Shown here: piece after piece, positions 1,392 through 44,460 of the stretch | How positions within the stretch are numbered: position 1 is the first letter of the stretch | How the letters are laid out: each line of letters begins with the position of its first letter | Origin: a virus | Strand: one strand, 5' to 3' | DNA: 45,879 nucleotides | Virus record (IMG/VR): IMGVR_UViG_3300024348_000082 | Coordinates: 1-45,879 of that record | Notes under the pieces: generated by a model | What the model saw: the letters and a program-made list of their open reading frames with translations, nothing else | Told to the model about the DNA's origin: nothing | Database searches by the model: none | Position numbers and translations under genes: made by a program

Positions 1392-1576
1392 ACTGGGTAG
1401 GTTACTTTCTCGAATCCGTATTTTTTAACTCGAGCTAGTAGCTTCTTACCTACTTTGTTACGAACTTTGTATTTAATAATTGTAGGACGATCTACAAAAC
1501 TAAGATACAAATACTTATCACCACGAGGATATGTGTATGTTGCTGATGGAACTTTATATACTAATGCTTTTTTCAT
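1388..1576 (-). CDS. Small basic protein, 62 residues, function unknown
   Basis: A 62-residue, strongly basic product (MKKALVYKVP..., many Lys/Tyr). It is joined by 4-base overlaps both to the dCMP deaminase upstream and to the exonuclease downstream, so it is clearly part of the replication operon. Predicted mostly beta with a basic C-terminal helix (KKLLARVKKYG). No family recognised. Confidence 0.65.
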   Translation of the reverse strand: MKKALVYKVPSATYTYPRGDKYLYLSFVDRPTIIKYKVRNKVGKKLLARVKKYGFEKVTYPV

Positions 1577-1986
1577 TTTTGTTGTACTCTTATATTACTG
1601 TGAATTAATGTTAAAATACCTGAATCAGTTTTATATCTGTCTGAGAAGATTACCCTCTCAACACCAGATTGGATTAGTAATAGTGAACAATTGTCACATG
1701 GAGCAGTTGTTACATATACTGTTGATCCTTTTAAACTCAAACCTTCTGCAGCAGCCTTAGAGACTAAATTTGCTTCAGCATGAATTACATAGGATAGTGT
1801 TTTATTATAATCATCTTCACATTTATTAGGAAAACCAGTAGGTGTTCCATTAAATCCAAAGCTGAGAATATTGTTATTTTTTACTGCAATAGCACCAACT
1901 TTACGCTTTTCAGCATGAGACATTAGTGCTATCCTTTTAGCAAGATCTAAATACAGGGAATCGTAGCGATCTTCTTTTGTAACCAT
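1573..1986 (-). CDS. Deoxycytidylate (dCMP) deaminase
   Basis: A 137-residue member of the cytidine/deoxycytidylate deaminase family. The zinc site is complete: HAE at residues 69-71 (His ligand and catalytic Glu) and PCDNC at 96-100 (two Cys ligands). The N-terminal half has KVGAIAV and FGFNGTPTGFP, the usual substrate-side elements of dCMP deaminases. The enzyme converts dCMP to dUMP, feeding thymidylate synthesis, which suits an AT-rich phage. I see no thymidylate synthase here, so dUMP would go to a host enzyme or one outside the window. The gene overlaps the preceding 163-residue gene by 40 bases, a longer overlap than its neighbours show. Confidence 0.9.
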   Translation of the reverse strand: MVTKEDRYDSLYLDLAKRIALMSHAEKRKVGAIAVKNNNILSFGFNGTPTGFPNKCEDDYNKTLSYVIHAEANLVSKAAAEGLSLKGSTVYVTTAPCDNCSLLLIQSGVERVIFSDRYKTDSGILTLIHSNIRVQQK

Positions 1987-5867: not shown

Positions 5868-6130
5868 TAGTAAACATCTCCATTTTCTTGAATCTTTTTA
5901 TCTTCGTATGGGGAGGCTACCCTACGATAAAATTCAAGTTTAGCACCTTCTAAAGCACCTACAATATCGTTAATTGCTTGGTAATTACCTTTATCTGAAC
6001 GATTAAAGTAATCACGTACAATAGATGTAACAACAAAGTTTAACTCACCTGGGCTAGTGCATAAATCACCAACTTCGGCTACACTTTTTGTATGTAAGAA
6101 TTGTTTAAAATCCTGTCTGATATAAGGCAT
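5867..6130 (-). CDS. Small helical protein, 87 residues, function unknown
   Basis: Starts MPYIRQDFKQFLH; contains CTSPGELNFVVTSIV and a helix-rich middle (YQAINDIVGALEGAKLEFYRR). The start overlaps the stop of the deoxyribosyltransferase-like gene as TAATG. The segment INDIVGALEGAKLEFYRRV resembles small uncharacterised proteins I recall from phage nucleotide-metabolism blocks, where they are usually annotated as hypothetical. No function assigned. Confidence 0.62.
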   Translation of the reverse strand: MPYIRQDFKQFLHTKSVAEVGDLCTSPGELNFVVTSIVRDYFNRSDKGNYQAINDIVGALEGAKLEFYRRVASPYEDKKIQENGDVY

Positions 6131-6543
6131 TAATCTAAATACTCCGTGATAATAGTGTCACATGCTTTATCCACTGTGGATCTCCACTCTGTAACTAAGG
6201 ATTCAAAGAAAGGGTGAATAGTAGAAGCATCAGCTTTAAATGCAACTACTGGCTTACGTAATACATAAGAAGCATAAAATACTTCCATAGCAGTACCGTG
6301 TTTAGCAATTGTAGGATTGTCTAAGTTAACAAGAATTAAATCTGATTCTTGGATATCACGAAGATCTAACTCAAATATTCTCTTCATGTACTTAGCTTGA
6401 AAGTCATGAACCCTACGAGTAGGATCAAGAACTTTTTGATCTGCTTGCTGAAGTAATTCAGTAGCAACATTACGCCAACCTTTTGCATCTTCAATAGAGA
6501 CATGCTCCATTGGTCCTGCTAGATAAATAGTTCTTTGTTTCAT
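6130..6543 (-). CDS. Nucleoside 2-deoxyribosyltransferase-like protein
   Basis: A 137-residue protein opening with IYLAGPM (residues 6-12), a middle DLRDIQESDLILVNL, and HGTAMEVFYA with E87. This is the layout of the nucleoside 2-deoxyribosyltransferase fold and of related DUF4406 proteins: a YLAGP nucleotide loop, an Asp-rich D..SD strand, and a GT..E helix carrying the nucleophilic Glu. The family exchanges or hydrolyses the base of deoxynucleosides or nucleotides, so a dNTP salvage or nucleotide-clearing role fits beside dCMP deaminase and DUF3310. The exact reaction cannot be read from sequence. Overlaps a 61-residue gene upstream by about 50 bases. Confidence 0.75.
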   Translation of the reverse strand: MKQRTIYLAGPMEHVSIEDAKGWRNVATELLQQADQKVLDPTRRVHDFQAKYMKRIFELDLRDIQESDLILVNLDNPTIAKHGTAMEVFYASYVLRKPVVAFKADASTIHPFFESLVTEWRSTVDKACDTIITEYLD

Positions 6544-7897: not shown

Positions 7898-7972
7898 TGG
7901 TCCCTCTTGTAGGAATCGAACCTACATTAATAACTTAGAAGGTTACTGTTCTATCCATTGAACTAAAGAGAG
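7898..7972 (-). tRNA. tRNA-Arg (anticodon UCU)
   Basis: A complete cloverleaf on the minus strand. The acceptor CTCTCTT pairs with AAGAGGG (one G-U pair), D stem GTTC/GAAC, anticodon stem GTAAC/GTTAT around loop CTTCTAA (anticodon TCT), a 4-base variable loop, T stem GTAGG/CCTAC around TTCGATT, discriminator A, and an encoded CCA end. It reads AGA/AGG; AGA is heavily used in AT-rich phage genes, so it probably supplements the host pool late in infection. Confidence 0.93.
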
Positions 7973-7974
7973 TG

Positions 7975-8049
7975 TGGTGGGATAAGTAGGAATTGAACCT
8001 ACACTCAATCGATTATGAGTCGACTGCTTTACCATTAAGCTATTATCCC
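7975..8049 (-). tRNA. tRNA with CAU anticodon, probably tRNA-Ile2 (alternatively elongator Met)
   Basis: Complete cloverleaf: acceptor GGGATAA/TTATCCC, D stem GCTT/AAGC, anticodon stem GTCGA/TCGAT around CTCATAA (anticodon CAT), 5-base variable loop, T stem GTAGG/CCTAC around TTCAATT, discriminator A and encoded CCA. The anticodon arm closely resembles bacterial Ile2 tRNAs (CGACTCATAATCG), where C34 becomes lysidine and the tRNA reads AUA. It lacks the unpaired 1-72 position and three G-C pairs of an initiator. Two bases separate it from tRNA-Arg. AUA is a common codon in this AT-rich sequence, which favours Ile2. Confidence 0.88.
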
Positions 8050-8650: not shown

Positions 8651-8680
8651 CTTTAGTGCTTTAGCGTACCCTGGTAAACT
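8651..8680 (-). promoter_or_regulatory. Phage RNA polymerase promoter (copy 3), upstream of SSB
   Basis: Minus strand TTTACCAGGGTACGCTAAAG, beginning at the RNA polymerase stop codon. It differs from the other two copies at one core position (T for G) and lacks the GAGAGA initial transcribed sequence. By analogy with the T3 promoter, whose CACTAAAG core is similar, initiation would be near 8659. It would drive SSB and the genes below it. A second partial CACTAAAG lies directly downstream at 8651-8658. Confidence 0.72.
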
Positions 8681-10854
8681 TAACAAAAAGCATAATCAGA
8701 ATACACAATTTGTCCTACATCAAGATTACCCCTCTCAGGAATAAGGTCTTTACAATTAAGTTCAGACAATAATTTCTCCAGTGGTTTACTTTTGTAGAAC
8801 TCTACAAACTGTTCTCTAACTCTATAAAATAAGTCATCCATATTTCCTGGTAGTGTACCAAAGGAATCATGAACAACAGTCATCTGATATGGTGCAGATA
8901 CAACAGTCATTGTTAGGTGAGCAGCATCAAAGCTATGCACAATATTTGGTGCAGCACCTGTTTTCTGGGAATCTTTATCAATCGTAGTCTCTTCCCATGT
9001 TTGAAGTTGAACCTTAAGTTCTTCTTCACCATACTTTAACTTAGTACGGATTATCGTTGGTTTCCTATAAGCTTGAACTACAGGGAAATTAGTTACTGGG
9101 GTAGTCCATTGTAAGAATACATTGTTGTCATTAGATCTTTGTGCAAGCTCTTGGAACATACGAAGCATCCTAGCAGGTCCTTTTAGTTTCTCATAACAAG
9201 TTTCAAATACTAGGTCACCTAACATGGCACCCCATAAATGCTCTTTGTCTCTGAGATACTCTGACATATCTCTAGTATCATCAATAATCTGTTGACCCAT
9301 ACCATATGCAGTACCACCATAACCAAGAGTCATAACATTTCTTTTTACTACTTTACGTTGATCTTTAGGATTATCAATGTTTAGCCAGTAAATAGAAAAT
9401 AATTTTTCTCTTATACTTCTATTTTGGTTTCTCCATTCTTGTGCAGCGGCATAAGCTAATGCCTTCTCTTCACTTTTATCTGGAGCATCAAAATATGCTT
9501 TTTGTAATTCTTTAGCTTTGGCATAGACTGAATCAAATTGTTCAATTTCTTTAGTTGTAAGATTTTCACTAAGGGTTCTAAGTTTCTGCCATGCATAATT
9601 TGCAATATACATGTAGACATCACCAGGAGTTTCTTGTGGAACTAAATTAACAAGATGAGCAATCTCTTCGTCTTGTGACATAGCAACTAGGTGTTGTACG
9701 CCATTGTTAGAACCATCAATATAAATTGGTAATGCACAAACATAGTCTTCTAGTTTATTACCTTCAACTAGCCAGTCTTTGATTTTCTTAAGTTCAAAAC
9801 AAGCAGCTAAAAAAGAGAATGGAGCATCTGTCTCAATCCATCCTTGATTAACTGTGGGCTTCTCTGCATAAGAAAGAAAGAGTGTTAGATTCTCATCTAC
9901 GAATTCAGCTCTTTGTTTTAGTGTTACTTTATCATTTCCAAATGAGTTAGATGTATGTATCTTTAACCAATATAACCCATTAGCACCTAATGGTTTTGCA
10001 TTATCTAGTAGTAATAAACCTTTTGCATTATCACTTGATTGCTCATGTAAGAATGCTGTGTTTACATATACACGACCTCTAAAGTCAAAATTGTAGATAT
10101 GATAAAATGCATTATCAAGGTGATTTAAGGCTAATCTTTCAATACCCTGAGCCTCAATTAGCAGAGATTGTTTCTTCTCTGTATCAATCTCACTGTGTAG
10201 TTTAAATGGACTATTATTACAAGGATTTTGTAAAAAATATCTATATACTGAAAATACATCTTTATTAATTCTCCAACCAATTGATTGAAGTTTATTAAGT
10301 GTATCAAACAGAATTTGTTTATCATCACCTTTAAATTTAGAGAGTGAGCTTGAATGTCCCTTCTTTATAATAGGAACACCATTAGCATTATGTGCAGAAG
10401 ACCATGGTGATGGTTCTTCTTTTAAAGGAAAGATATCCGTCTTTGTTTGATCAATTAGATCCCAAAGTTGTTCAATTGCTTTCCAGTCTTTAACTTGTAA
10501 GAAATATGCTTTATATTTACTTTTCTTTCCATTCTTATATGTATACTTTAATCTGAAAATTAAAATACCACATTCAATGTAAGCAATACAAATAAACCAA
10601 CCTACTTGTGCATCAGAAACAGTATCATTAGGTAAATTTAACAATTGTCTAACCCTACGCCCAATTGTTGCAACAATATCTACGAGAGTAGTTTGTCTTT
10701 CTAAACCTCTTAAGATATGTGGATATGAGACGTCAATCAGTGTTTTAGCAGGTACTTCTTTTAAGTAATGCGTATAAATATTACGATCAGCCCGTAATAC
10801 AGCCTGTCGTTTATTTAAATCTGTGATTAGATTTTCAAGGATAATATTTACCAT
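8680..10854 (-). CDS. Single-subunit DNA-directed RNA polymerase, T7 family
   Basis: A 724-residue enzyme that should transcribe the phage's own promoters. Catalytic elements are intact: IDGSNNGVQH with D380 (T7 Asp537), VVKRNVMTLGYGG with K504 and Y512 (T7 Lys631/Tyr639), GAAPNIVHSFDAAHL, and VVHDSFGTLP with D663 (T7 Asp812). The C terminus ends SDYAFC, matching the FAFA-type foot of T7. It is about 160 residues shorter than T7 RNA polymerase, mostly in the N-terminal promoter-melting and exit-channel domain. The segment with FPVVQAYRKP aligns with the region before the T7 specificity loop. The ATG at 10852-10854 follows a TAGGAAAG ribosome binding site, three bases after a 32-residue gene. 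Confidence 0.96.
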   Translation of the reverse strand: MVNIILENLITDLNKRQAVLRADRNIYTHYLKEVPAKTLIDVSYPHILRGLERQTTLVDIVATIGRRVRQLLNLPNDTVSDAQVGWFICIAYIECGILIFRLKYTYKNGKKSKYKAYFLQVKDWKAIEQLWDLIDQTKTDIFPLKEEPSPWSSAHNANGVPIIKKGHSSSLSKFKGDDKQILFDTLNKLQSIGWRINKDVFSVYRYFLQNPCNNSPFKLHSEIDTEKKQSLLIEAQGIERLALNHLDNAFYHIYNFDFRGRVYVNTAFLHEQSSDNAKGLLLLDNAKPLGANGLYWLKIHTSNSFGNDKVTLKQRAEFVDENLTLFLSYAEKPTVNQGWIETDAPFSFLAACFELKKIKDWLVEGNKLEDYVCALPIYIDGSNNGVQHLVAMSQDEEIAHLVNLVPQETPGDVYMYIANYAWQKLRTLSENLTTKEIEQFDSVYAKAKELQKAYFDAPDKSEEKALAYAAAQEWRNQNRSIREKLFSIYWLNIDNPKDQRKVVKRNVMTLGYGGTAYGMGQQIIDDTRDMSEYLRDKEHLWGAMLGDLVFETCYEKLKGPARMLRMFQELAQRSNDNNVFLQWTTPVTNFPVVQAYRKPTIIRTKLKYGEEELKVQLQTWEETTIDKDSQKTGAAPNIVHSFDAAHLTMTVVSAPYQMTVVHDSFGTLPGNMDDLFYRVREQFVEFYKSKPLEKLLSELNCKDLIPERGNLDVGQIVYSDYAFC

Positions 10855-11986: not shown

Positions 11987-12123
11987 AAAAGAGCTTGGTA
12001 CTTACCCCAAGTGGTCTCTCTACTGAGAAAGTCTAGTACATACCCTAGAGGGTCTCTCTAAACCGAGAAGGTTAGTAGATGACTACTTCAACTAAGTCAG
12101 CAGAATATGACTCAAGCTCTTTT
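11987..12123 (-). repeat. Two tandem hairpin units inside an 11-base inverted repeat (possible structured RNA)
   Basis: Two degenerate units of about 38 bases lie at 12031-12069 and 11993-12030. Each reads, on the minus strand, TTCTC-loop-GAGAG, then ACC..GGT, then GTAC: a hairpin with CUC/GAG stem followed by a second small hairpin. The pair is flanked by CAAGCTCTTTT (complement of it at 11987-11997; the other arm at 12113-12123, inside the 36-residue gene), which could close a long stem. It begins just after that gene's stop. Two paired hairpins in tandem are unusual in such packed DNA and suggest an RNA control or processing element. Confidence 0.55.
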
Positions 12124-12295: not shown

Positions 12296-12721
12296 TTATT
12301 TTGAAAGGTTACTATACAATTCTTTTACACTATTTTTAGTATTGTTAAAGGCAATTTGAGTTCCTTCTTTTGCTCTTTCAACAAAAGATGGCTCAACTTT
12401 TTCTTCTTCTTCCTTCTTTCTAAACAAAGATAAGATGTCGTCTCTTTCTTGTTTAGCTGCTTTCTTAAACTTTCTTGTATTCTCTTCTTTTTGGTAATCA
12501 TCATAAGCACATACAGCAACATTTGCAGTTGTTGTAATAGTACCTACCATAATACCTGTAGCAATAAATGGACCTGCGCCTGGGATAATAAGAGCAGCTG
12601 CAGCACCAATACCAGTGGCAACTGAACCTGTCTTTAACATCTCAGTAGGCTTACAAATATCGTCAGCAAAAGCAGAAATAGAAGAGATAGCAATAGTCAC
12701 AGCAATGATTACTTTTTTCAT
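12296..12721 (-). CDS. Exported or membrane-attached protein with signal peptide, function unknown
   Basis: A 141-residue protein with a textbook signal peptide: MKK, a hydrophobic core VIIAVTIAISSISA, and AFA-DD at residues 18-22 as the cleavage site. Two Cys follow (CKP and VCAYDD, possibly a disulfide). A long Gly/Ala/Ile-rich hydrophobic stretch (about residues 32-66) looks like a membrane-inserting hairpin, and the last 70 residues form a highly charged coiled-coil-like helix (KKAAKQERDDIL, RKKEEEEKVE). Export plus a hydrophobic hairpin suggests a periplasmic or envelope role such as lysis or superinfection control. This is inference; no family is recognised. Preceded by a GGAG ribosome binding site. 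Confidence 0.65.
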   Translation of the reverse strand: MKKVIIAVTIAISSISAFADDICKPTEMLKTGSVATGIGAAAALIIPGAGPFIATGIMVGTITTTANVAVCAYDDYQKEENTRKFKKAAKQERDDILSLFRKKEEEEKVEPSFVERAKEGTQIAFNNTKNSVKELYSNLSK

Positions 12722-12750
12722 TTAAAAACTCCAGTTGTTAAAAAATTAAA

Positions 12751-12861
12751 TTACCAGTTAGAAGATTCGTTTGATTCTTTGAATGACTCTAGTCCCTCAT
12801 AGAGGAAACAAACGCCAAACAAAATAACACAAACTAAACCAATTACTTCAAGAACAAACAT
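12751..12861 (-). CDS. Tiny membrane peptide, 36 residues, after repeat copy 1
   Basis: ATG at 12859-12861, about 28 bases after the 57-bp repeat at 12889-12945. Product MFVLEVIGLVCVILFGVCFL then YEGLESFKESNESSNW: one hydrophobic span (residues 2-20) and a polar Ser/Glu tail. The leader contains TGAAAG as a weak ribosome binding site. Together with the neighbouring 41-residue gene it may have arisen by duplication of a promoter cassette. Confidence 0.5.
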   Translation of the reverse strand: MFVLEVIGLVCVILFGVCFLYEGLESFKESNESSNW

Positions 12862-12888
12862 GATTTACTTTCAAAAGTTAATGAATTT

Positions 12889-12945
12889 GAGTACTCTATC
12901 TAATGATATTTCTTCATTATAGATACATCATTTTTCTCACTTTTT
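12889..12945 (-). repeat. 57-bp direct repeat, copy 1, with a TATAAT promoter-like element
   Basis: Identical over 57 bases to 13096-13152, and recognisably similar for about 24 more bases towards the downstream ATG. On the minus strand it contains a perfect TATAAT at 12916-12921 and an AATGAT...ATCATT inverted repeat around it, like an operator. No good -35 hexamer is visible at 17 bases. It lies ahead of the 36-residue membrane gene, with which it would give a leader of about 50 bases. Its upstream end overlaps the stop codon of the 41-residue gene. Confidence 0.7.
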
Positions 12946-13069
12946 ATTGTGAGTTTTTCAACCTAAAAATACGATTAATAGCGGATGGTGTTAAGTCTTT
13001 AATTGCTAATCTTTTAGAATTAGTAATTCGTTTACCTAAAGCCATTGCAAGTTTATCTTCATGAGTCAT
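12944..13069 (-). CDS. Tiny basic protein, 41 residues, after repeat copy 2
   Basis: ATG at 13067-13069, 27 bases after the repeat copy at 13096-13152. Product MTHEDKLAMALGKRITNSKR then LAIKDLTPSAINRIFRLKNSQ: basic, with a short helix-turn-helix-like stretch (AIKDLTPSAINRIFRL). A DNA-binding role is conceivable because each gene in this pair sits behind an operator-like repeat; this is speculation from the context. The stop codon lies inside repeat copy 1. Confidence 0.45.
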   Translation of the reverse strand: MTHEDKLAMALGKRITNSKRLAIKDLTPSAINRIFRLKNSQ

Positions 13070-13095
13070 ACTTACTTTCAAGAGTTAATGGAATC

Positions 13096-13152
13096 GAGTA
13101 CTCTATCTAATGATATTTCTTCATTATAGATACATCATTTTTCTCACTTTTT
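13096..13152 (-). repeat. 57-bp direct repeat, copy 2, with a TATAAT promoter-like element
   Basis: Second copy of the repeat at 12889-12945, 207 bases away. TATAAT is at 13123-13128. It starts about 20 bases after the terminator at 13170-13195 that closes the bilin cassette, so it is well placed to start a new transcription unit. A TATAAT element is host sigma70-like, not like the phage promoter, suggesting early transcription by host polymerase of the genes leading to the phage RNA polymerase. Confidence 0.7.
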
Positions 13153-13169
13153 TAAGCCTAATTTTTGAT

Positions 13170-13195
13170 AAAAAAGGCCACTCTTTCGAGTGACC
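13170..13195 (-). terminator. Strong intrinsic terminator closing the bilin cassette
   Basis: Minus strand GGTCACTC-GAAA-GAGTGGCC followed by TTTTTT: an 8-bp stem (one G-U pair) with a GNRA tetraloop and an unbroken U6 tract. This is the clearest intrinsic terminator in the window. It follows the 28-residue peptide gene by three bases and separates the heme oxygenase/bilin reductase unit from the small-gene cluster. Confidence 0.85.
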
Positions 13196-13198
13196 GTT

Positions 13199-13285
13199 TT
13201 AGTTTGTTCCACAATACCATTCTATATACTTTTTAGCGTACCAATAGAAGATAGGAGGTATAGTTAGTAGCGCAATGTATTCCAT
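13199..13285 (-). CDS. Tiny membrane peptide, 28 residues, third gene of the bilin cassette
   Basis: ATG at 13283-13285, one base after the bilin reductase stop, and followed within three bases by the terminator stem. Product MEYIALLTIPPIFYWYAKKY then IEWYCGTN: a hydrophobic, aromatic span (residues 3-16) then a basic pair and one Cys. Tight placement between the reductase stop and the terminator argues it is translated with the cassette. It may be a membrane tether or unrelated; no function assigned. Confidence 0.5.
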   Translation of the reverse strand: MEYIALLTIPPIFYWYAKKYIEWYCGTN

Positions 13286-13286
13286 C

Positions 13287-13973
13287 TTATACCTCTGGAA
13301 AAAGACATTCTTGAATAAATTTATTTACTGTAGCTTCATCAAATCCTAACGATTGCATAACTCTAGGTGTATGAGGATTTTTCTTTTGATTTTGACAATA
13401 CCAATTCTGTTGTTCAGTATAATTAAAATTTTCTATTTTATACTCATAACTATGTTGAGCATTTAGTATATGTAGTGTGTCTAAATACTTCTCTAATGAT
13501 CTCTTAGATAAATCTAATACTTCATTTAGTTCAAACTCAGAGTTAATATTACCAGCAGCTACCATTGCTGAACTAAAGATATTCCTAGCCCATTCAGGTA
13601 ACTCTCTTGGTTTACTCCACTCATAATCTTTTACTTCATTAGCAAACCATTTAACTAACTCATGATCTTTATTACCTGATGGACTAAAGTCATGAAATGC
13701 TCCAGTAACTTTTGTTGGGCCAGCTATTAAATCAAAACCATAGATAGGCGCATCTGAATATATCTTTGGAAACACACACAAATGCATCATTAAAAGTTTC
13801 TTAGTATCTCTAGCATCTACAATATCTAAATGGGCTCTACGAATATTACCACTAATATAAATTTTATTTTCCCAAGGAAATGGATGAGTTTCTTCAGATA
13901 AGAAAGTTCTTGACTCTAGTATATCTTTAAAGTCTTGTATATGTTTTTCTAGTTTACTGAATATTATACTCAT
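13287..13973 (-). CDS. pcyX: Ferredoxin-dependent bilin reductase, PcyX-like
   Basis: A 228-residue member of the PcyA/PebS/PcyX/HY2 family, which reduces biliverdin IX-alpha with electrons from ferredoxin. Aligning by eye with cyanobacterial PcyA: RAHLDIV matches HLELA, MMHLCVFP matches LHCVMFP, and YGFDLIAGP matches FGCDIVAGP. H64 and D81 thus equal the catalytic His88 and Asp105 of PcyA, with exactly 17 residues between them. PcyA Glu76, needed for D-ring vinyl reduction, is replaced by Asp (D50). The C-terminal region has CQNQKKNPHTPRV, comparable with PcyA CQQQQKNDKTRRV. Loss of Glu76 with retention of His/Asp fits PcyX, known from marine viral metagenomes to make phycoerythrobilin. The start overlaps the heme oxygenase gene by 20 bases. 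Family certain; PcyX rather than PcyA assignment and product are inference. Confidence 0.88.
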   Translation of the reverse strand: MSIIFSKLEKHIQDFKDILESRTFLSEETHPFPWENKIYISGNIRRAHLDIVDARDTKKLLMMHLCVFPKIYSDAPIYGFDLIAGPTKVTGAFHDFSPSGNKDHELVKWFANEVKDYEWSKPRELPEWARNIFSSAMVAAGNINSEFELNEVLDLSKRSLEKYLDTLHILNAQHSYEYKIENFNYTEQQNWYCQNQKKNPHTPRVMQSLGFDEATVNKFIQECLFPEV

Positions 13974-14490
13974 CAGCTAGCTCATCAAATAGTTGTGTTG
14001 CAAAGGCAAAGACTACTTTAGCTTCATCGGCTAAATCATCTGTTAACTTTTCTCTAACAGTAGCAATCAATTCTGCTCGGTTATAAAACTCATACATTGA
14101 GCCAGAACCTGGAACTAACTTCTTTAGCATTTGACCACCATACATATCACCAAAATGGCGTACATAAATGTGGGCAAGTAATTGTTCTTTTGAGCATGTC
14201 TTTACGTATTCACAATATGCCATTGTACTCATATGTAAATGTTGTCTTGACTTATCTCTATTTAGATCTCTTAGATCTTGTGCAATTTTAGTTGTACGTT
14301 TAATATTTAAGATATCATCTAGTAATCCTAAATCTTCTGCTCTTTGTTCTAGAGTAGCATAGCAGTGTTTTTGATTAAACAAAAAATCTCCATACTCTTC
14401 TTTTGTGATTTGCCCTGCAAACAGTTTCTTTACAAAAGGATGATTCTCTGCACTATCATGTGCATCTTTAATTAGTTCTCTTAATGCCAT
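13954..14490 (-). CDS. Heme oxygenase (biliverdin-producing)
   Basis: A 178-residue heme oxygenase of the HO-1/HmuO fold; it opens heme to biliverdin IX-alpha, CO and iron. The proximal heme ligand is H11 in LIKDAHDSAEN, matching human HO-1 His25. The distal-helix signature is RHFGDMYGGQ, with D115 (human Asp140) and the flexible GGQ, followed by MLKKL. QITKEEYGDFL matches the family's usual QVTxxxYxxFL. The size is slightly below the usual 210-240, because the C-terminal membrane or extension region is short. A good AAGGAG ribosome binding site precedes the ATG. The product is the substrate of the adjacent bilin reductase, and overlapping genes imply coupled synthesis. No electron donor gene is in the window, so host ferredoxin is assumed. 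Confidence 0.93.
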   Translation of the reverse strand: MALRELIKDAHDSAENHPFVKKLFAGQITKEEYGDFLFNQKHCYATLEQRAEDLGLLDDILNIKRTTKIAQDLRDLNRDKSRQHLHMSTMAYCEYVKTCSKEQLLAHIYVRHFGDMYGGQMLKKLVPGSGSMYEFYNRAELIATVREKLTDDLADEAKVVFAFATQLFDELADEYNIQ

Positions 14491-24796: not shown

Positions 24797-24840
24797 CTAG
24801 GAGACGCCTAGGATCTCTCTTTAGCGTCCCCTGGTAAATG
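24797..24840 (-). promoter_or_regulatory. Phage RNA polymerase promoter (copy 2) with leader hairpin
   Basis: Minus strand TTTACCAGGGGACGCTAAAG followed by AGAGATCC; predicted initiation near 24819 by analogy with the T3 promoter. Immediately downstream CCTAGG-CGTCT-CCTAGG makes a perfect 6-bp hairpin (24797-24813). It lies between the 2110-residue adhesin gene and the GNAT gene, so it boosts the fibre module. Confidence 0.82.
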
Positions 24841-44420: not shown

Positions 44421-44460
44421 GGAGCACCTCAGATCTCTCTTTAGTGTCCCCTGGTAAAAG
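44421..44460 (-). promoter_or_regulatory. Phage RNA polymerase promoter (copy 1) ahead of the tail chaperone/tape measure operon
   Basis: Minus strand TTTACCAGGGGACACTAAAG followed by AGAGATCT; predicted start near 44439. Only one core base differs from copy 2 (A for G). A hairpin lies in the leader: CTGAGG pairs imperfectly with CCCCTAG around TGCTC, and CCTAGG is shared with the copy 2 leader. The overlap with a terminator-like stem on its upstream side suggests a transcription restart here. Confidence 0.82.

Follow-up and report, generated by a model that had tools for sequence, protein, structure and literature searches.

The virus record analysed here, a single stretch of 45,879 bp whose main genes lie on the minus strand (the window), carries two tandem copies of a 38-bp element built around TATAAT, upstream of a T7-like RNA polymerase (RNAP) gene. 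These copies are likely to be early promoters in tandem, of a kind carried by Naomviridae-like phages; the host RNAP probably reads them, and their architecture is atypical but tightly conserved. The sequence, conservation, position and orientation of the element are direct observations on the DNA, as is a separate motif of the phage polymerase in the same genomes. On sequence grounds only, the analysis provides a transcription plan with two polymerases for marine phages of a family in which U replaces T in the DNA of the characterised members.

The tandem repeat in the window

Comparison of the window with itself revealed an 81-bp direct repeat, 95% identical and with a spacing of 207 bp, which includes an identical core of 57 bp (12889-12945 and 13096-13152). 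Both copies are read on the minus strand and each contains TCTATAATGAAGAAA. The two identical 57-bp copies with TATAAT described by the sequence-only reading are thus borne out as part of a longer repeat. They had been said to lead into a 41-residue basic and a 36-residue membrane gene; both ORFs are present, the 36-codon one being hydrophobic. The features of the region are as follows.

13287-14490, minus strand: bilin cassette upstream of the terminator, heme oxygenase (13954-14490) and ferredoxin-dependent bilin reductase (13287-13973)
13170-13195, minus strand: strong intrinsic terminator, stem GGTCACTCGAAAGAGTGGCC followed by T6, with which the bilin-cassette unit ends shortly ahead of the first predicted early promoter
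13072-13152, minus strand: 81-bp repeat, copy 1 in transcription order (direct-repeat comparison)
13116-13153, minus strand: predicted early promoter element, first in transcription order, -37 to +1, TATAAT at 13128-13123 (repeat, weight matrix, conservation)
12944-13069, minus strand: 41-codon basic ORF between the two predicted promoters, stop included (net charge about +6 by residue count)
12865-12945, minus strand: 81-bp repeat, copy 2 in transcription order, 95% identical (direct-repeat comparison)
12909-12946, minus strand: predicted early promoter element, second, -37 to +1, TATAAT at 12921-12916 (repeat, weight matrix, conservation)
12897-12925, minus strand: imperfect inverted repeat over the -10 and the leader, its second arm lacking conservation among relatives
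12751-12861, minus strand: 36-codon hydrophobic ORF after the second predicted promoter
8680-10854, minus strand: T7-like single-subunit RNA polymerase gene, with which the putative early region ends (homology)

Along the minus strand the order is therefore heme oxygenase, bilin reductase, a small ORF, the terminator, copy 1, the 41-codon ORF, copy 2, the 36-codon ORF, further small ORFs and the RNAP gene. At its -37 edge the second element shares bases with the TAA that ends the 41-codon ORF. One copy had been proposed to begin after the cassette terminator, and copy 1 indeed does; the same arrangement of terminator and first element is seen in relatives. In a weight-matrix scan of the whole window the two copies scored 51-55 bits, the shuffle maximum and the next-best site were both at 3.7 bits, and a third copy was absent. 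A pure assembly duplication, named beforehand as one case that would speak against the element, can be excluded, as the pair recurs with identical spacing in the independent contig L005. Other genomes, the isolate DSS3_VP1 among them, have tandem pairs that have diverged and lie 206-447 bp apart. As a separate observation, the bilin cassette, with a PcyA/PcyX-type reductase, lies here in a long-tailed phage bearing a T7-type RNAP and is also found in contigs L004 and L005.

Conservation and distribution of the element

With TATAAT set as -12 to -7, the element forms a 38-bp block from -37 to +1 that reads A5-6 GTGRGR A3-4 N4-5 [GC]C[AC]TC TATAAT GAAGAAA; more fully, its 5' part consists of A5-6, (G/C)TGRGR, A3-4 and four to five free bases. 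The A-tracts, centred at about -34 and about -24, flank TGRGR at a fixed distance. All fetched loci were pooled and near-identical copies collapsed, which gave 66 non-redundant elements; since TCTATAAT and [TC]GRGR were required for inclusion, invariance at these positions is partly by construction. This set is conserved from -37 to +1; one base further on, the information content is down from 1.42 bits to 0.36 bits, so that conservation spans exactly a promoter footprint. Loci collected via the polymerase gene alone showed the same elements with the same spacing, and TATAAT is present in the element of 21 of 21 such loci and in both window copies. Positions -28/-26 covary with -17 to -15: TGAGA is paired with GCA or GTA in most elements and TGGGG with CCC in the rest (39/3 versus 0/24, Fisher 5e-15, a statistic that ignores kinship). 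One contig, L083, bears both types. The conserved ATGAAGAAA was also considered as the start of a leader peptide and ruled out, as the frame is not kept (variants GATACA and AGAAGA). In L084, L085, L106, L137 and others, the ATG of an apparent endonuclease-like ORF (MKKWNKLF...) coincides with TATAATGAAGAAA, and this start codon would hence precede the predicted +1.

The proposed search for further copies outside the window was run and found them in both Naomviridae isolates and in dozens of marine contigs. The exact 29-mer around TATAAT occurs in three other contigs, one of which has the same 207-bp pair, and up to five copies were counted in a single contig. A DNA search with a 601-bp region gave strong matches only to the Ruegeria phages DSS3_VP1 (E 3e-5) and DSS3_PM1 (3e-4), the other two matches being weak; that to Marinobacter phage PS3 was discarded because it is weak and lies outside the element. 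Within 12700-13300 the DNA likeness to the DSS3 phages is confined to the element, although the RNAPs share 50% of their amino acids. The pattern TGRGRN11TCTATAATGAAGAA was found in 66 stretches of IMG/VR, with a chance expectation of a few (a rough estimate from pattern length); about four of them, which lack the A-tract, look like chance matches (L105, L116, L126 and L128). These 66 stretches and the 66 non-redundant elements are different sets, and the equal number is coincidental. In 84,980 genomes of bacteria and archaea, a comparable scan returned three chance-like matches, and by these scans the motif is phage-specific. When six whole records were scanned with the weight matrix, each contained 1-4 elements; these scored 30-61 bits, shuffles stayed below 9 bits and no other site exceeded 4 bits. 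No description of the element was found in the literature searched, which excludes the founding roseophage paper (Curr Biol 2021, doi 10.1016/j.cub.2021.05.014). The motif can be used as a marker for early regions and relatives in metagenomes.

Position relative to the RNA polymerase gene

All 21 loci with this RNAP clade (fetched via the polymerase gene, RNAP at 46% amino acid identity or more, at least 1.5 kb of upstream sequence) contain one to three elements, which share the strand of the RNAP gene and lie 1.2-8.5 kb upstream of it. The opposite strand of these loci has none, and the element is absent from 6 of 6 loci with more distant RNAPs (30% identity). The co-occurrence is drawn from the 21 polymerase-selected loci and not from a re-search of 36 element-bearing records for RNAP, of which 5 were positive; most are short fragments, and about four are the chance-like matches named above. 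The elements follow terminators and precede small SD-ATG ORFs, which vary between phages. Their position is that of T7-type early promoters, upstream of the RNAP gene, on the same strand and before small early genes, both in the 21 loci and in the annotation of DSS3_VP1. In this isolate two copies, 447 bp apart, lie directly after the terminator of the tape-measure gene and before the early genes and the RNAP. A third, partial element is seen at 67767-67811 of DSS3_VP1 (about 5768-5812 of L058, plus strand), where a terminator-like stem is followed by GCATCTATAATGAACCAA without TGAGA. It precedes the conserved gene DSS3VP1_00104 of 661 residues and possibly marks a second early operon.

A second motif was found in intergenic regions of the same genomes, ATAGGKKRCGTTAAAGAGGGG in the DSS3 phages and TACCAGGGGACGCTAAAGAGA in the clade of the window. 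Written as ATAGGTGACGTTAAAGAGG, it resembles the SP6 promoter, and it is shared across the family. A loose regular expression for this motif gave many chance matches, and a weight matrix was used instead. There are 15 sites in DSS3_VP1 and 14 in DSS3_PM1, all on the coding strand; in DSS3_VP1 the stretch that runs from the elements through the RNAP gene is free of sites, the first being found about 1.3 kb beyond that gene. Longer relatives of the window have about five sites and the window has three, all assigned by weight matrix.

8653-8678, minus strand: SP6-like putative promoter for the phage polymerase, beginning 2 nt beyond the RNAP gene
24813-24838, minus strand: SP6-like putative phage-polymerase promoter, intergenic, in the tail-gene block
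44433-44458, minus strand: SP6-like putative phage-polymerase promoter close to where the structural-gene block begins

The TATAAT element does not match this SP6-like motif, and the two have separate distributions in the genomes. The presence of a separate SP6-like motif in a T7 layout argues that the TATAAT element serves another polymerase than that of the phage, most simply the host's. With the phage motif being distinct, the elements upstream of the RNAP gene occupy the site of T7-type early promoters.

From this arrangement we infer where transcription starts, that the host RNAP is used, when this happens and what the upstream block does. On entry of the DNA, the host RNA polymerase would start just after TATAAT, with +1 at about 13116 and 12909 on the minus strand, and the terminator at 13195-13170 would shield the elements from upstream read-through. 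Host transcription would then run through the small early genes to the gene of the single-subunit RNA polymerase, which in turn would use its own SP6-like promoters for the middle and late genes. Recognition would involve the perfect -10, the purine-rich stretch after it and a block of A-tract, TGRGR and A-tract in place of the TTGACA -35. The early promoters suggested by the sequence-only reading are accordingly retained on footprint, position, orientation and the separate SP6-like motif, and the host polymerase that it named is their likely reader, judged by sequence and position. The exact predicted start sites can be tested in cultured DSS3_VP1 on Ruegeria pomeroyi.

Architecture of the predicted promoters

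Both window copies have the canonical -10 hexamer TATAAT. A -35 hexamer TTGACA at 16-18 bp is absent, positions -35 to -30 reading AAAA(G/C)T, and there is no extended -10 TGn, as -15 to -13 read (A/C)TC. A standard sigma-70 scan misses both copies because of the absent -35 hexamer. Mapped sigma-70 promoters of Alphaproteobacteria are mostly without the T at -7 (PMC8407463), and a perfect TATAAT is therefore a strong -10 for such hosts. The DSS3 isolates have an alphaproteobacterium as host. For alphaproteobacterial hosts the strong TATAAT may offset the missing -35. As read from the alignments, the architecture is unusual in lacking both TTGACA and an extended -10, in its rigid TGRGR at -30 and in its near-invariance. 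This near-invariance, together with the absence from bacterial genomes, exceeds the needs of a plain sigma-70 promoter, and a phage-supplied recognition factor would fit too. A near-invariant promoter without a -35 also poses the question of which reader recognises it, and how, on uracil DNA.

Among known systems, the class I promoters A1-A3 of T7 are closest in layout, being tandem promoters before small early genes that end in a single-subunit RNAP gene. The two-polymerase programme, with phage-RNAP promoters outside the early cluster, is likewise shared. T7 A1-A3 have sigma-70 -35 and -10 hexamers, whereas the element lacks a -35 and has the fixed A-tract/TGRGR block, and the virus has the tape-measure tail genes of a long-tailed phage. 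Promoters of SP6/T7-type RNAPs resemble the second motif of these genomes and not the TATAAT element. Late promoters of T4 similarly combine a strong -10 box with no -35 hexamer, but they act late and need gp55, gp33 and gp45, whereas the element is in an early position and has an extra upstream block.

Alternative explanations

A phage factor, virion-borne or made very early, could act with the host polymerase or in its place by contacting TGRGR (-30 to -26) and [GC]C[AC] (-17 to -15). The motif is phage-specific, near-invariant and without a -35, and the covarying positions form two sites about one helical turn apart, all of which would suit such a factor. Early genes, however, normally start without phage proteins, and no virion RNAP or transcription factor could be recognised among the four giant proteins of the window (a tape measure, a tail fibre, one with weak Ig/PA14 matches and one without any match), so that we regard this as unlikely. 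There is a slim chance, rated only a little above that, of a promoter class specific to the phage family, in which the A-tract/TGRGR block covarying with -17 to -15 would be read by a factor that the phage delivers or produces and that is perhaps suited to uracil DNA free of thymine methyl groups. An N4-type hairpin promoter, suggested by the GGGG...CCCC subclass, was rejected, as no virion RNAP was recognised and the conserved short stem with a 3-nt loop upstream of +1 was not found; the GGGG/CCCC pairing is limited to one subclass, absent in the TGAGA subclass, and the inner bases vary. That the phage's own T7-like polymerase reads the element would explain why every testable locus of this RNAP clade has it, and the GAAG that follows the -10 bears a loose likeness to an SP6 start. 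The same genomes nevertheless hold the different SP6-like motif with the distribution expected for that polymerase, and the element is confined upstream of the RNAP and conserved to -37, beyond a T7-type promoter. The candidate was dropped when the separate motif was found and is very improbable.

The sequence-only reading had also proposed that the inverted repeat is an operator and that the 41-residue basic protein might bind the repeats. Each window copy does contain an imperfect 10-bp inverted repeat (TATCTATAATGA-AGAAA-TATCATTAGATA), and the small basic protein is encoded between the copies. Conservation of both arms and their spacing was not found in the relatives: close relatives have a second arm of the form TATC-N4..6-GATA, variable in spacing and sequence, and the DSS3 phages and distant phages have none. 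Among the loci examined, the protein occurs only in the window, L005 and L016, the others having different first genes, while the element is present in dozens of genomes. Neither the operator nor its proposed binder is thus needed, and we give this reading even less credence. The leader folds no better than shuffles, which counts against the operator too; an RNA-hairpin leader was ruled out on the same ground and for want of conservation. Lastly, two near-identical copies in one genome might reflect a site other than a promoter (an origin, a packaging site or an RNA leader element) or a recent neutral duplication. Against this stand the conservation across genomes, the single orientation relative to genes, the end of conservation at the predicted +1, the up to five copies per contig and the presence of the element in independent contigs and isolates; it is the least credible of the explanations. 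Tandem early promoters probably read by the host polymerase account best for the copies.

Relation to the Naomviridae

The DSS3 phages (Naomviridae, Noahvirus) have the same element in two copies, and their RNAP is homologous to that of the window at 50% amino acid identity. DNA polymerase, exonuclease and deaminase are also homologous; together with the RNAP and tape-measure matches, these are the homologues of core genes of the family in the window itself. Portal, coat and minor head proteins, at 39-60% amino acid identity, were found in related records of complete length. In contrast to the window, the DSS3 phages are without the TATC...GATA leader stem and the 41- and 36-codon genes, and the element is preceded by the tape-measure gene rather than by the bilin cassette.

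The genus Noahvirus is defined by deoxyuridine replacing thymidine in its DNA (PMC9868039). Given the related deaminase in the window (1573-1986), its DNA may, speculatively, be uracil-substituted as well, which would bear on sigma-promoter contact. On the minus strand of the window, the dCMP/dCTP-deaminase-like gene is accompanied by a nucleoside 2-deoxyribosyltransferase-like gene at 6130-6543.

Two further observations concern the early region and its surroundings. Within it, at 11990-12075 (minus strand), lies an imperfect repeat, about 38 nt long and arranged in tandem, whose stems are paired (CTTCTCGGTTTAGAGAGACCCTCTAGGG... / CTTTCTCAGTAGAGAGACCACTTGGGG...); the repeat has no Rfam match, folds no better than shuffles and is conserved in L003, L004 and L005. 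Shortly after the RNAP gene, at 7898-8049 on the minus strand, there are adjacent genes for tRNA-Met(CAT) and tRNA-Arg(TCT).
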